From a virus, in the IMG/VR virus record IMGVR_UViG_3300025853_000041, positions 41,182 to 105,181 of that record: a stretch of DNA of 64,000 bases; one strand, written 5' to 3'. Of the stretch, positions 39,814 through 53,675 are shown piece by piece. The stretch's first letter is position 1, and each line of letters begins with the position of its first letter. The notes under the pieces are model-generated. The model had not been told where the DNA came from and did not search any database. It worked only from the letters and a program-made list of their open reading frames with translations. The translations under genes were made by a program, and so were the position numbers.

Positions 39814-41292
39814 TTATAGGTTTAAATAATATAATTCTTTTTTTGCTCTACTGCGAGCTACATACTTAAGATTCTGCTCTTGTACCATTTGTTCAGGTGA
39901 AGTTGCAAATTTAGATGGAATTAAATTTTCATTTAAAATATAAACAATATCAGCCTCCAATCCTTTAGCCTTATGAATAGTACAAAGCATTACTGCCTTG
40001 TCTTTCACTTTAAAAAGATTTTTCACTTTGTCTAATAAAACCTTAATGATTTCATAATCTGTACTCATATGAGATACCAATGCTTTGAAATTGGTGTAGT
40101 TCTCCTTAAAGATATACATTTTCATTCTACCATTATCAGATTTATCTTTTTGAAGGTCTTCTAAAACATATTGTAATTCCCTTTTAGTTCCTGAAACAGT
40201 ATAATTTAAGTAGGGTTTTAAGAATCTTGTAATTGAAGTTAGAATATCATCACCTTTTATATAAACAGGCATACCAGAGCCAAGAAGCTCAAAGTAGAGC
40301 TTAATTATAGGGCTTGTATTTCTGCATATTATCATAGATTCTGGCTTTATTTCATTTACATTTTCTACTTTACTTACTATTCCTTTTTCTTCTGTCCCAT
40401 ACTCCATTACATCATATACCTCATTTGTTTCATCGATTATGTTTTGAGCACATCTGTAACAAATATCAAGAGGTAATTCTTCTACATCACCCATACTCTT
40501 AAACTTATCAAAAGACGACGAATAAGCTCCACTGAACCCATAAATTGATTGGTTTCTGTCTCCCACAGCTATCCATTTAATGATAGTGCCTTGGGCAATC
40601 AAATTCTCAACGAGTTTATGTTGTGCTAAATTCAAGTCCTGAGCTTCATCTACCATTAAATAATATGGTTCAATTGGTATATGAAGATTGTCTCTTGCTG
40701 CTAAGTAAATCATGTCATTGAAGTCAATAACAACAGTTTTCCCTGTATAACTTTCTTCCCTTAATTTTACGAAGTCAGCCCACAAAGATACAATTTTTTC
40801 GTGATTGACAAAATTTTTATCCATACTTTCCATATGTTTTTTAATTTCGTCAATATCATCGTTTAAAAATAGCCTGGATATGTCGTTCATATCCATAAGA
40901 GTATAACTTAATTTAAGCTTATCTTCCCATCTCATTTTTCTGAAGATACTCTTATGTTTATTCTGTAAAAGTTTCAGAAGTTCAAAATTTTTTCCATTTT
41001 TTATTACTACTTTACTCTTCTTTTTGTAATGATTTCTAATTGCTGAAAGACCTAAAGAATGCATTGTAAGCGATTTTCCTTGATTTAGTTTGTTTTCATC
41101 AATCTTGCTTTGAATTTCTTCCTGCACAGATTTATTAAAAGCTAAAAATAAGGTTCTATACTTACAATACTTTAGCAGCTCAAGTAAGGTTGTGGTCTTA
41201 CCTGAGCCTGCTACTGCATTAATTAAAATGTTCTTATCAGTGTTATTCCAAACATCAAAAATCTTCTGCTGTTTACCACTTGGTTTAAACAT
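39814..41292 (-). CDS. UvrD/Rep-like superfamily 1 helicase
   Basis: A 492-residue SF1A-type helicase. Motifs in order: Walker A AGSGKTTT (about 28-35), Walker B VDEAQD, motif III VGDRNQSIYGFSGA, motif IV LDICYR, motif V CTIHKAKGLEADI, and motif VI YVARSRAKKEL. These proteins unwind DNA 3' to 5' using ATP. It is shorter than bacterial UvrD (~720), lacking part of the 1B/2B subdomains. It is one of three helicases in the module and probably serves recombination or repair. Confidence 0.85.
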   Translation of the reverse strand: MFKPSGKQQKIFDVWNNTDKNILINAVAGSGKTTTLLELLKYCKYRTLFLAFNKSVQEEIQSKIDENKLNQGKSLTMHSLGLSAIRNHYKKKSKVVIKNGKNFELLKLLQNKHKSIFRKMRWEDKLKLSYTLMDMNDISRLFLNDDIDEIKKHMESMDKNFVNHEKIVSLWADFVKLREESYTGKTVVIDFNDMIYLAARDNLHIPIEPYYLMVDEAQDLNLAQHKLVENLIAQGTIIKWIAVGDRNQSIYGFSGAYSSSFDKFKSMGDVEELPLDICYRCAQNIIDETNEVYDVMEYGTEEKGIVSKVENVNEIKPESMIICRNTSPIIKLYFELLGSGMPVYIKGDDILTSITRFLKPYLNYTVSGTKRELQYVLEDLQKDKSDNGRMKMYIFKENYTNFKALVSHMSTDYEIIKVLLDKVKNLFKVKDKAVMLCTIHKAKGLEADIVYILNENLIPSKFATSPEQMVQEQNLKYVARSRAKKELYYLNL

Positions 41293-48289: not shown

Positions 48290-49009
48290 TTACCAATTTA
48301 TTGTACCTAAGCTCTTGAGTCTTAGGATTGTGTTAGTTAAATAAAAACCATCATTTGAAAAACTATCATCAGCATTTTCAAAAAATGTAGAAGCTGGGTG
48401 ACTACCTGGAATAACATAATTTAATTTGTCATCCACAATAATCTCTTCTATGGTTTCTTTATCATACTTTGATGTTATCAAAGGGTTTTCTATTTTTGTG
48501 ATGAAACTTATAGGGTCTGCTCCCCACAACATCCATACACAAGGATTAGCGTGACTAATATAAGAAACAACAGTTTCTATAAAGTTTCGCCAATTTAACC
48601 TATGACTGTAAGCTTTTCCTATCTCAACAGTCAAAGCAGTATTTAGCAAAAATACTCCTTGCTTCTCCCATTTTTCTAAAGTGTTCCATTCACTTGATTG
48701 TTCTAAAGACCAATAAACTGTTCTAACAACTTCTTGTCTTATTTTTTCAAGGATATTTGGGGATTTTGCATCTCTTTTGACTCCATAAGCCAATCCATTA
48801 GCAGTCCTTGGTAAAGGATATGGTTCTTGTCCTAATATTACCACTTTAATGTCTTTTACAGGCATCTCAAAAACTCTAAAAATTAGAGATAATTCAGGCT
48901 GTATAGACATAGTATTAAGACTTTCGAGAAATTCAACCATAGGCTCTTTATAAGCCAAGCTATGTAATAATGGTATCCAAGATTCATGCACATTTTTAAA
49001 TAGATTCAT
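48290..49009 (-). CDS. ung: Uracil-DNA glycosylase, family 1, with altered catalytic motif
   Basis: A 239-residue enzyme of the UNG family, which removes uracil from DNA. Motifs: VVILGQEPYP (57-65) in place of the usual GQDPYH, LLNTALTVE, and GSHPASTFF with the catalytic-loop His kept. The water-activating Asp is Glu62 and the following His is Pro65, so activity may be reduced or altered. The fold is otherwise complete. It overlaps the primase stop by four bases. dUTPase in the same module would lower uracil incorporation. Confidence 0.85.
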   Translation of the reverse strand: MNLFKNVHESWIPLLHSLAYKEPMVEFLESLNTMSIQPELSLIFRVFEMPVKDIKVVILGQEPYPLPRTANGLAYGVKRDAKSPNILEKIRQEVVRTVYWSLEQSSEWNTLEKWEKQGVFLLNTALTVEIGKAYSHRLNWRNFIETVVSYISHANPCVWMLWGADPISFITKIENPLITSKYDKETIEEIIVDDKLNYVIPGSHPASTFFENADDSFSNDGFYLTNTILRLKSLGTINW

Positions 49010-50082
49010 AATAATATTCTTTTAGCTTTTAAAAAATTAATTAATTCTTGTCGTCCCTTTTTGTGTATTAAATCTGAAGGGTCAGATATCTTTTTTGCCA
49101 AACACCATTCTGGCAAATATACGCTTCTAGCTTTATTATCAGAAGGGTAGTTTATTAAATTGACAAGGTCCTGAGCAGCTTTTATACCTGCTGCATCATT
49201 GTCAAAAAGTACTACTACCTCATCAAAACTATCCACCAAGTTCCAAAAAGCATTACTTTTTGGGAACATTCCTTCATTTTGTAACCATCTCACATTAAGC
49301 CCCAGGTTTCTTAATACTCTGAAATCTTTATATGACTTGGTTATGACTAATAGTCTGCCTGATTTGATAGGAGAAAGCATTCCTCCTACATCATCTGCAG
49401 TACAATTTGTTATGAATCTTTTACTTCCTTTTTGCTTAGGTCTGTAAATTTTCTTATTTCCACTCTCAAATTCAGTGTAAGCATATGCAATATCCTTTAC
49501 TCTGAACATATGGTCTCCTGTCTTAGTATTGAAAAGCTTAAACTTTCTAATAGGAAAAACTTTATCTTCTATTAGGTTGTCTTTAGAGATTAAATATCTG
49601 TGTTCCCAAAAATTTCTATCAACTATTAAGAAATCTCTGGTATTCATTAGTATTTTTACTCTCTTCTTTTCTTTTTTTAAGGAAGGTCTAGTGTAAACTT
49701 TGTGTATTATGTCATGTTTAACATCTTTACCATCAATTAGCTTAGCTTTTATGAATTCTAAAGTCTTATAGAAATTAGGTAATCCAAAATAAACCATAAC
49801 TGCATCAAAGCAATCGATATTTGACATCTTTACACCATTTATAACTCTTGTATCAGCAAAATCAGTAAACCTTAATTTATTTGTATTAAGGTCTATTTCA
49901 AACCAGCATCCAGGTGAGTTGTCTTCTCTAAATGGAGAAGTAATATACTCAAACTCAACAGGCTTAAAACCAAAGACTAATTGGAATATGTCTTCTTGTG
50001 AGACATATTCCAATATTTTGTCTTTGCTAATAAAACCACTTTCTATTATGTCAGTATCAGTAGTTCTATTAAATTCTGCCAT
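49006..50082 (-). CDS. DnaG-like primase with TOPRIM domain
   Basis: A 358-residue protein. The N-terminal 100 residues follow the primase zinc-finger fold pattern (SPFREDNSPGCWFEI, then LRFTDFAD) but have lost the zinc cysteines. The TOPRIM domain has VVVLFDNDAAGIKAA (D-x-D), but motif I reads LLVITKSYKDF, where DnaG has a Glu. The T-K-S-x-K-D form is, from memory, common in Bacteroides-phage primases. It should lay RNA primers for the phage polymerase, near the DnaB-like helicase. It overlaps the glycosylase by four bases. Confidence 0.8.
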   Translation of the reverse strand: MAEFNRTTDTDIIESGFISKDKILEYVSQEDIFQLVFGFKPVEFEYITSPFREDNSPGCWFEIDLNTNKLRFTDFADTRVINGVKMSNIDCFDAVMVYFGLPNFYKTLEFIKAKLIDGKDVKHDIIHKVYTRPSLKKEKKRVKILMNTRDFLIVDRNFWEHRYLISKDNLIEDKVFPIRKFKLFNTKTGDHMFRVKDIAYAYTEFESGNKKIYRPKQKGSKRFITNCTADDVGGMLSPIKSGRLLVITKSYKDFRVLRNLGLNVRWLQNEGMFPKSNAFWNLVDSFDEVVVLFDNDAAGIKAAQDLVNLINYPSDNKARSVYLPEWCLAKKISDPSDLIHKKGRQELINFLKAKRILL

Positions 50083-50093
50083 CTACAATAATT

Positions 50094-50849
50094 TTACCAT
50101 TGAGATTTTACAGCAGTTACACCAGCACTAGCTGCAGCAGCAGTAGCAGGCTCTTCACCTTCTATTTGCTGAATAGCTTTATTACTTTTCATGAAGTTTT
50201 CACTTCTTGTGAATGGGTGCTCATTACCAGCTCCATCAACATAACGAAGCCCAGCTTCATCAGCAGGATTGAAAGCTCCACCAACAGGTGCAATATGAGG
50301 AGCCAAGAAACGACCACCTTTCATATTTTTAGGTAATTGAAGGAAAGTTCTTTCATTACCTTCACCAATATTCCACTGATATTCTAAGAATACATCTACT
50401 GGAATTGTAGCAAAATTTCCTGGTTTGATACCACACATAGCAGTAGCCCAAGTTGCAAAATTGGTAACATTACCATTTTGCAAAGCACTTTTAATTTGGT
50501 CTTCTGTTGCACCTAATGCTTTTACAGCATGCACAATTACAGCTTCTCGCTGAGCTTTCTCTGCATTGTAAAGTTCATTATACCCTGGTTCACCTTCAGA
50601 GATTTTATTATCTCCTTTGAATAGGTCTCCTGTGATATCATAGATACGACTTCTGAATTCCTTTTCACCAATTTTGACAGTTATGTCAATAGCATCAGCT
50701 AATGATTCATCTGCTCCTGCATTTGGGTTATACTCTAATTTGGTAATATTAACTGCTTGGTTAAGACCAAATCTACCACCTTGTTTACTTTTTAGTGAGT
50801 CATCATTATCATTCTGATATCCCCAACTTGTTTTTGTGTTTTCACTCAT
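50094..50849 (-). CDS. SSB-like single-strand DNA-binding protein
   Basis: A 251-residue protein starting MSENTKTSWGYQ. Middle strands (about 30-70, KEFRSRIYDITGDLFKG) and the WATAMCGIKPG region fit the single-strand binding proteins described for crAss-like phages. The C-terminus is Ala-rich (EPATAAAASAG) and ends in aromatic Trp. It lies between primase and an acidic-tailed protein in the replication block. The call rests on family memory and position; no canonical OB-fold motif is proven. Confidence 0.55.
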   Translation of the reverse strand: MSENTKTSWGYQNDNDDSLKSKQGGRFGLNQAVNITKLEYNPNAGADESLADAIDITVKIGEKEFRSRIYDITGDLFKGDNKISEGEPGYNELYNAEKAQREAVIVHAVKALGATEDQIKSALQNGNVTNFATWATAMCGIKPGNFATIPVDVFLEYQWNIGEGNERTFLQLPKNMKGGRFLAPHIAPVGGAFNPADEAGLRYVDGAGNEHPFTRSENFMKSNKAIQQIEGEEPATAAAASAGVTAVKSQW

Positions 50850-51284: not shown

Positions 51285-51956
51285 TTAATATGTTTTTAAT
51301 GCATCGATTACTACATTGTAATCATTTTCAATTTTGCCATCAAATAATCCCATTGGGCTTCTGGCTGTGTTATACCCATTGTTCTGTGTTTCAAGAATAA
51401 AGTTTAAATCATCTCCTTCTTTCTCAACATTTGCATAAAATACTGCTTCAAGTTTACCTTCAATTTGCATTTTATTAGCTAAGTTTCCAAGAGTCTTTAA
51501 TCTTATTCTTGTTTCTGCTCCTTCTTTATAAGTCTCAGTGTGACCTGTAAGAATAGCATATCTTTCCTCTTCAAACATCTCTTTTTCAAGACCTACTTTA
51601 ATATGCTCTATAATCTCTGCATAAGATTTAGGAATTATATGGAATGGAGCAATAGGAGCTATTTTCTTCCCATACTCTAATTTTCCACCTTTCCATACTG
51701 GATTCTTATTATCAGCATTATACCATATATTTGTTTTTGAAGGTAAGTTTCTCATCCCTGTGCTTTTACCCACCCCAGGTGGTCCAAGTATCAAAGCAAT
51801 CTCAAAACCTAATTCTTGTAAATCAATTATGAAACGATAAATCTCAGTTCCATAATCTTTCCATTTATCATGTCCAGGTTTCTTTTTGTCTAACATATAT
51901 TGATTTTCCTGAATTTGAGTCAGTGTATCAACACATATTGTGCTTATTTTTGTCAT
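51285..51956 (-). CDS. Sak4-like AAA ATPase with permuted motif order
   Basis: A 223-residue protein of the Sak4/AAA_24 type, RecA-like ATPases that help single-strand annealing. The expected pieces are all present but in a different order. A Walker B-like strand and its follow-on come first (ICVDTLTQIQ at 7-16, KWKDYGTEIYRFI at 31-43). The P-loop LGPPGVGKS (57-65) and NIWYNADNK come second. TGHTETY (137-143) and the EGKLEAVFYANVE segment come last. In usual members the P-loop is first and the VDTLT segment lies just before TGH. The gene is complete and fits tightly between neighbours. Confidence 0.75.
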   Translation of the reverse strand: MTKISTICVDTLTQIQENQYMLDKKKPGHDKWKDYGTEIYRFIIDLQELGFEIALILGPPGVGKSTGMRNLPSKTNIWYNADNKNPVWKGGKLEYGKKIAPIAPFHIIPKSYAEIIEHIKVGLEKEMFEEERYAILTGHTETYKEGAETRIRLKTLGNLANKMQIEGKLEAVFYANVEKEGDDLNFILETQNNGYNTARSPMGLFDGKIENDYNVVIDALKTY

Positions 51957-53084: not shown

Positions 53085-53675
53085 TTATTTACTTCTTCTT
53101 GTTCTTTTTTTAGGTGCTTCTGGAATATCTTCAACAACAACAGTAGCAGGCTCTATTGCCTGAGGTTTTGGTGGTGGTGAAGCTTTATATGTCACAGCAA
53201 CAACATTAAATTCAGATAATACGTCTTTAAGGACAGGTAATACATCCTTCCAAGAGCCTCCACCTATACCACAACCAATCTGAGGAACATAGACAGTAAA
53301 TGTATGTCTTTGTTCAGGTGGTATTGTAAAAGTTAAAGCTTTGATGGAAGTTTTTAGAGCATCTATATCAAAATTTGCTCCTGGATTATATTGAGTATAT
53401 AAGTTTGCACCTATTTTCAATTGGTCCTGTGTATCAGCCAATACTACTGCACTAAAGCTTCCAAACCTTTGTGTAGCTAATCTTGAATCATATTGGTCCA
53501 GATAAAAAAGGGGAGGAATATTGTGCCTTATTTGAGCTGCAATCCCTGCTCCCATTTGTTTTTGACAATTTGCTCCATGCATTATGATAGCACTTGTCTC
53601 GCTTTTGAAGAATAGCTCAATAGCATCCCCTTCAACCTCTACAAATGTAGGGCTTTTTTTCTTATTTTCACTCAT
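53085..53675 (-). CDS. Macro-domain protein
   Basis: A 196-residue protein with a macro domain: IIMHGANCQKQMGAGIA (30-46) and VPQIGCGIGGGSW (about 129-141), the two loops that bind ADP-ribose or related ligands. The C-terminal tail is Pro-rich and ends in a basic cluster (KKRTRRSK). Macro domains bind or hydrolyse ADP-ribose conjugates. Two roles are possible: reversing host ADP-ribosylation or NAD-derived signals used in anti-phage defence, or handling tRNA-processing phosphates. Neither can be chosen from sequence. Confidence 0.8.
   Translation of the reverse strand: MSENKKKSPTFVEVEGDAIELFFKSETSAIIMHGANCQKQMGAGIAAQIRHNIPPLFYLDQYDSRLATQRFGSFSAVVLADTQDQLKIGANLYTQYNPGANFDIDALKTSIKALTFTIPPEQRHTFTVYVPQIGCGIGGGSWKDVLPVLKDVLSEFNVVAVTYKASPPPKPQAIEPATVVVEDIPEAPKKRTRRSK

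Follow-up and report, generated by a model that had tools for sequence, protein, structure and literature searches.

Walker B ahead of the P-loop: a conserved non-circular permutation in Sak4-like phage ATPases

Can the chain of a RecA-type ATPase pass through its core motifs in another order and still give a conserved protein? The question is raised by a 223-residue open reading frame (ORF) in a stretch of viral DNA of 64,000 nucleotides, taken from IMG/VR virus record IMGVR_UViG_3300025853_000041 (positions 41,182 to 105,181) and referred to here as the window. A sequence-only reading had proposed that this ORF encodes a Sak4-like ATPase whose blocks run B-A-C instead of A-B-C, where A carries the P-loop, B the Walker B strand, and C the TGHTE strand. 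The ORF translation has the motifs at the positions claimed, with VDTLT at residues 9-13, KWKDYG at 31-36, LGPPGVGKS at 57-65, and TGHTE at 137-141. Outside the circularly permuted GTPases, P-loop ATPases are generally considered to have a fixed order, with the P-loop ahead of Walker B, and annotation and profile searches presuppose it. Profiles, relatives that include cultured phages, a tree of the C block, and a confident structure prediction bear out the B-A-C order in a Sak4-family ATPase, and we conclude that the swap is real and conserved, with function apparently retained. The reading that we consider very probable is that of a Sak4-type RecA-fold recombinase or annealing ATPase after one ancient non-circular permutation, probably coating or annealing single-stranded DNA in phage replication and recombination.

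Profile evidence for the block order

The coordinates of the gene, its blocks and its neighbors are collected in Table 1. The phrog_2872 profile matches the ORF with an E value of 1.4e-40 and, across the whole genome, finds nothing but this ORF, in three minus-strand stretches (profile positions 69-119, 3-48, and 118-215) that correspond to B, A, and C. Pfam AAA_24, which scores the ORF at 28.7 bits against a cut-off of 27, aligns residues 3-56 to profile positions 64-127, its Walker B part, and phrog_124 likewise aligns residues 3-54 to the Walker B part of its own profile (108-166). The ORF thus has a significant match to the Sak4, phrog_2872, and AAA_24 family, with Walker A, Walker B, and GH all present, but it lacks the canonical succession of P-loop, Walker B, and GH. 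Given the B-A-C order, we file it as a permuted variant descended from the Sak4 family and not as an ordinary member; nor does it fall among the circularly permuted P-loop NTPases, as B-A-C is no rotation of A-B-C. A search with phrog_2872 gave no second, canonical Sak4 in the record, which may be incomplete, and AAA_24 gave just three sub-threshold P-loop matches elsewhere in it.

Table 1. Positions in the window of the permuted Sak4-like gene, its blocks and motifs, and neighboring genes.
Feature	Coordinates	Strand	Basis
Permuted Sak4-like ATPase, 223 aa, block order B-A-C	51285..51956	(-)	Intact ORF, ATG start
B block, residues 1-49: Walker B strand (E4-10), loop, helix (H35-48), now N-terminal	51810..51956	(-)	Canonical B-block HMM, AAA_24, predicted strands and helices
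Walker B motif ISTICVDTLT, residues 4-13	51918..51947	(-)	D10 and T11 invariant, alignment of 27 relatives
Residues 22-36, LDKKKPGHDKWKDYG, putatively at the position of RecA DNA loop L1	51849..51893	(-)	D30, W32, D34 invariant in alignment
A block, residues 50-127: first strand, P-loop, NADNKNP region, following helix	51576..51809	(-)	Canonical A-block HMM
Walker A / P-loop GPPGVGKS, residues 58-65	51762..51785	(-)	G58, G61, G63, K64 invariant
C block, residues 128-223: TGHTE strand, L2-like segment, RLKxLG, EG, NTARSPxGLF, and ND motifs	51288..51575	(-)	Canonical C-block HMM
GHTE motif, residues 138-141, counterpart of canonical AHTE/SHTE	51534..51545	(-)	G138, H139, E141 invariant in alignments
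Upstream neighbor: DnaB-like RecA-fold protein, 372 aa	51966..53084	(-)	DnaB_C E 1.3e-6
Conserved 251-aa neighbor, function unassigned (phrog_15339)	50094..50849	(-)	Beside permuted sak4 in most relatives
DNA primase (toprim)	49006..50082	(-)	phrog_12622 E 2e-81

Separate HMMs for the A, B, and C blocks were built from 16 canonical-order Sak4-like proteins out of annotated phage records, and the blocks of the ORF were scored in place against a null of 2000 shuffles of the same protein. The A-block HMM reached 23.1 bits over residues 53-97 (best shuffle, 4.6), the B-block HMM 22.3 bits over residues 5-43 (best shuffle, 6.6), and the C-block HMM 53.3 bits over residues 137-223 (best shuffle, 7.7). 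When a single profile of the 16 canonical Sak4s was used, it matched in three stretches in each of 15 permuted proteins, and the stretches displayed were ordered Walker B, P-loop, C. The P-loop lysine and the GH histidine are 75 residues apart in the window protein, compared with 106-124 in the canonical proteins in which this could be measured, and no Walker B-like hhhhD strand lies between the two. The shorter spacing and the absence of such a strand indicate that the B block was moved, not duplicated. There is also no space in front of the gene for a lost P-loop block, as only nine bases lie between the upstream gene and the start.

A different view of the same protein is that of a Sak4 without Walker B that has gained an unrelated, look-alike strand and helix at its N-terminus. 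B-block scores rank among the lowest and drop to 5-6 bits, no better than shuffles of the window protein, in four permuted sequences (L139, L143, L147, and L151); in addition, the three-dimensional place of the N-terminal strand is one that we infer. However, these four sequences still align with the rest of the family, the B block of the window protein itself scores far above its shuffles, and both AAA_24 and phrog_124 put the segment on their Walker B parts. D10-T11, D30, W32, and D34 are invariant, and the length missing between the P-loop and GH fits a moved block. Moreover, L195, a distant permuted relative, has a B block that in a sequence search against the entire PDB matched residues 117-200 of 8RC5, the Sak4 of phage 52A (E 1.9e-5), and this part of 8RC5 is located behind its P-loop. 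An N-terminus of unrelated origin is, in our estimation, very unlikely. What appears to have shifted from between A and C to the N-terminus is a beta-alpha unit of Walker B strand, loop, and helix. The sequence-only reading had taken both VDTLT and KWKDYG as the Walker B-like segment ahead of the P-loop, which is right for VDTLT, but KWKDYG belongs to the loop and helix that follow the Walker B strand and travel with it. Across 27 aligned sequences, the catalytic motifs vary little or not at all, with Walker A, D10, GH, RLK, and other residues unchanged throughout. Values of dN are low in each block (0.04-0.24 in the B block), alongside dS values that are often saturated.

Relatives and a possible origin

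The permuted order occurs in every full-length relative found in IMG/VR, about 30 distinct sequences with identities of 29-100%. It also occurs in cultured Flavobacterium psychrophilum phages, including Fpv3 and FpV4, at 68% identity to the window protein, and the deepest branch found (L195, L198, and L199), at about 30%. In RefSeq, the Flavobacterium phage proteins are annotated as Sak4-like, with no remark on the order. The nearest relatives are permuted without exception and the wider Sak4 family has the canonical order, so the usual order is not shared by all relatives. An assembly or chimera artefact confined to this contig, against which a check had been advised, has next to no probability: the order is the same in independent IMG/VR contigs and in the cultured phages Fpv3, FpV4, and others, and misassembly is excluded on these grounds. 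Two scans of genome contigs confirmed no permuted relative in bacterial genomes, so no prophage carriers were seen.

Block order was also counted in a census of 1799 distinct ORFs from all fetched loci. Among the ORFs with a C block, 147 were A-B-C and 28 were B-A-C, and eight others were without one block, either through a split gene or through a low B score. A tree was then built on the C block alone, that is, without the rearranged parts. Its 30 permuted rows form one clade (98/97) on a long stem, for which a single origin is the simplest reading; the tree gives no clear sister group, as some canonical rows have very long branches.

A non-circular permutation takes more than one step. One conceivable path would start with a partial tandem duplication that gives A-B-A-B-C, after which the first A might be lost via a new start codon and the second B via a deletion. 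The block joints adjoin two strand-glycine motifs that resemble each other, ALILG ahead of the P-loop and AILTG ahead of HTE, and this resemblance could have aided unequal exchange. None of the 1799 distinct ORFs carried duplicated blocks (A-B-A-C and the like), so the duplication path is a conjecture.

In several relatives, the permuted gene is interrupted. Inserts at L148:3613-3989 and L149:1840-3050 lie within the P-loop codons, after residue 61, and have group I intron P, Q, and R-like motifs (S as well in L148); by eye, the L149 insert also has a GIY-YIG-like ORF. Group I-like inserts at L028:6099-6926 (phage Fpv1) and L024:3885-4992 split the gene after about residue 31-34, and the ORFs within them look GIY-YIG-like in Fpv1 and LAGLIDADG-like in L024. 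The Fpv1 gene in RefSeq, gp63, is annotated without its first exon, and the database protein consequently misses Walker B. Rfam at gathering thresholds gave no intron in the split relatives; elsewhere in Fpv1 (L028:13095-13340), a group I intron match to RF00028 (43.4 bits, E 5.7e-8) was obtained at a relaxed threshold, below gathering. The DnaB-like neighbor in L024 is split too, near its P-loop (L024:1694-3772; query 1-53 and 49-371), a hint of a further intron.

Predicted structure, gene context and probable role

The AlphaFold2 model built from 27 sequences has a pLDDT of 91.2 and a pTM of 0.89. It replaced an earlier model from 13 sequences (pLDDT 72) with poor fold matches, dihydrofolate reductases on top. 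The chain begins with a strand at residues 4-10 and helices at 12-24 and 35-48, followed by a strand at 51-58 and the P-loop. The best PDB match of the model is 8RC5 (Z 9.6 over 145 residues, rmsd 3.4, model residues 49 to 223), which is also ranked first by Foldseek (E 3.7e-4). RecA and Rad51 structures come next, with Z up to 7.8 and nearly all aligned from residue 50. The predicted structure therefore has the RecA/Rad51 core fold, with these matches covering residues 49/50 onward only, and a relocated N-terminal unit that a sequential aligner has no means to place would lead to just such a start. Residues 4-10 are predicted as a beta strand, as Walker B requires, and this strand would take the place of the Walker B strand in the sheet. 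In RecA-type sheets, the Walker B strand adjoins the strand ending in the GH-equivalent motif, so the swap could keep all strands in place and change only the crossovers.

In this arrangement, ATP would be held by the P-loop and D10, and GHTE may sense nucleotide or DNA like the matching position of RecA. In RecA, DNA loop L1 is reached through the loop that follows Walker B, and L2 comes after the next strand. By analogy, the KKKPGHDKW segment would be L1-like and the segment after TGHTE L2-like, which would set the P-loop block between the two putative DNA-loop segments, the former ahead of the P-loop and the latter behind it. Sak4 of phage 52A makes filaments (PMC11846896), and in Staphylococcus, phage replication depends on Sak4 (PMC5499656). 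Recombination activity of the PA73 Sak4 is reported to survive mutation of its Walker A (PMC5499656); intact motifs are therefore no proof of a need for ATPase activity, which should not be assumed to be essential.

The gene is flanked by the DnaB-like gene on one side, and downstream by conserved genes that include the primase and a uracil-DNA glycosylase. The DnaB-like gene adjoins it in most relatives, and the order helicase-Sak4-primase is held in most of them, in part even in the deepest, L195. Next to the DnaB-like gene, at 53085-53675 (-), lies a gene for a 196-aa protein that matches phrog_335 (phosphatase; E 1.4e-40) and looks macro domain-like by eye. The context of DnaB-like helicase, primase, uracil-DNA glycosylase, and ligase fits replication and recombination, and it is alongside these encoded proteins that the permuted Sak4 would coat or anneal single-stranded DNA. 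Profiles for single-stranded DNA-binding proteins (SSBs) gave no match among the neighbors, and the 251-aa phrog_15339 protein is a candidate single-strand binding partner.

The same neighborhood could be read as a sign that the permutation is real and the recombinase role was lost in favor of another ATP-dependent one, for example as partner or loader of the DnaB-like helicase. The near-constant adjacency of the DnaB-like gene, the lack of an identified SSB next to the permuted gene, and a filament interface that the permutation could have altered all speak for such a change. However, the C block, with the most conserved motifs of the family, is the block that scores best against canonical Sak4, and adjacency to a replicative helicase is not peculiar to the permuted form: canonical Sak4 also lies beside it in crAss-like phages, directly after the helicase gene in crAss001 and cr128. 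We regard a non-recombinase role as improbable, and the permuted protein most likely acts as a Sak4-type ATPase for single-stranded DNA annealing and recombination in phage replication.

Comparison with canonical and permuted proteins

The closest structural counterpart, Sak4 of Staphylococcus phage 52A (ORF016, PDB 8RC5), is a filament-forming, Rad51-like recombinase whose chain runs from the P-loop to Walker B, whereas the window protein has Walker B first and aligns to it only from residue 49 (PMC11846896). HK620 hkaL and related Sak4-like annealing proteins (phrog_2872, PF13479 AAA_24) are homologous to the window protein in all three blocks and share a series of motifs with it (AHTE/GHTE, KTIGK/KTLGN, SPMGMF/SPMGLF, and NDL/NDY). 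The difference from canonical Sak4-like ORFs, of which all 147 fetched are A-B-C, is one of order. Permuted P-loop NTPases do exist, namely RsgA/YjeQ and other circularly permuted GTPases, and the sequence-only reading pointed to them. The comparison is imperfect, however, as RsgA-type GTPases are circular permutations and the window protein has a non-circular, internal swap of two adjacent segments in a RecA-type fold.

The same reading knew of no permuted member of this annealing-ATPase family, and our literature search, with most subscription papers outside its coverage, likewise gave no description of a permuted Sak4 or RecA-type recombinase; nor did biochemical work on any member of the permuted family come to light. 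We lean, with moderate confidence, toward the view that this RecA-fold recombinase has a non-circular permutation that is natural, conserved, and functional and may be the first known in the RecA superfamily, with the ATP-binding block set between the two DNA-binding loop segments. If this is true, the ancient RecA ATPase core tolerates altered strand connectivity. As this permuted RecA-type recombinase has persisted across deep divergence and cultured phages carry it, the role of chain order in folding, filament assembly, and ATP coupling is directly testable. Natural non-circular permutations have been described as less common than circular ones (PMC10085705); bacterial DNA methyltransferases and the capsid protein of BPP-1 are cases given by name (PMC5701804, PMC3863775). 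The BPP-1 major capsid protein is a close parallel, another phage protein whose fold is naturally permuted in a non-circular way (PMC3863775, PMC5701804), but its fold is that of the HK97 capsid, whereas that of the window protein is a P-loop ATPase.
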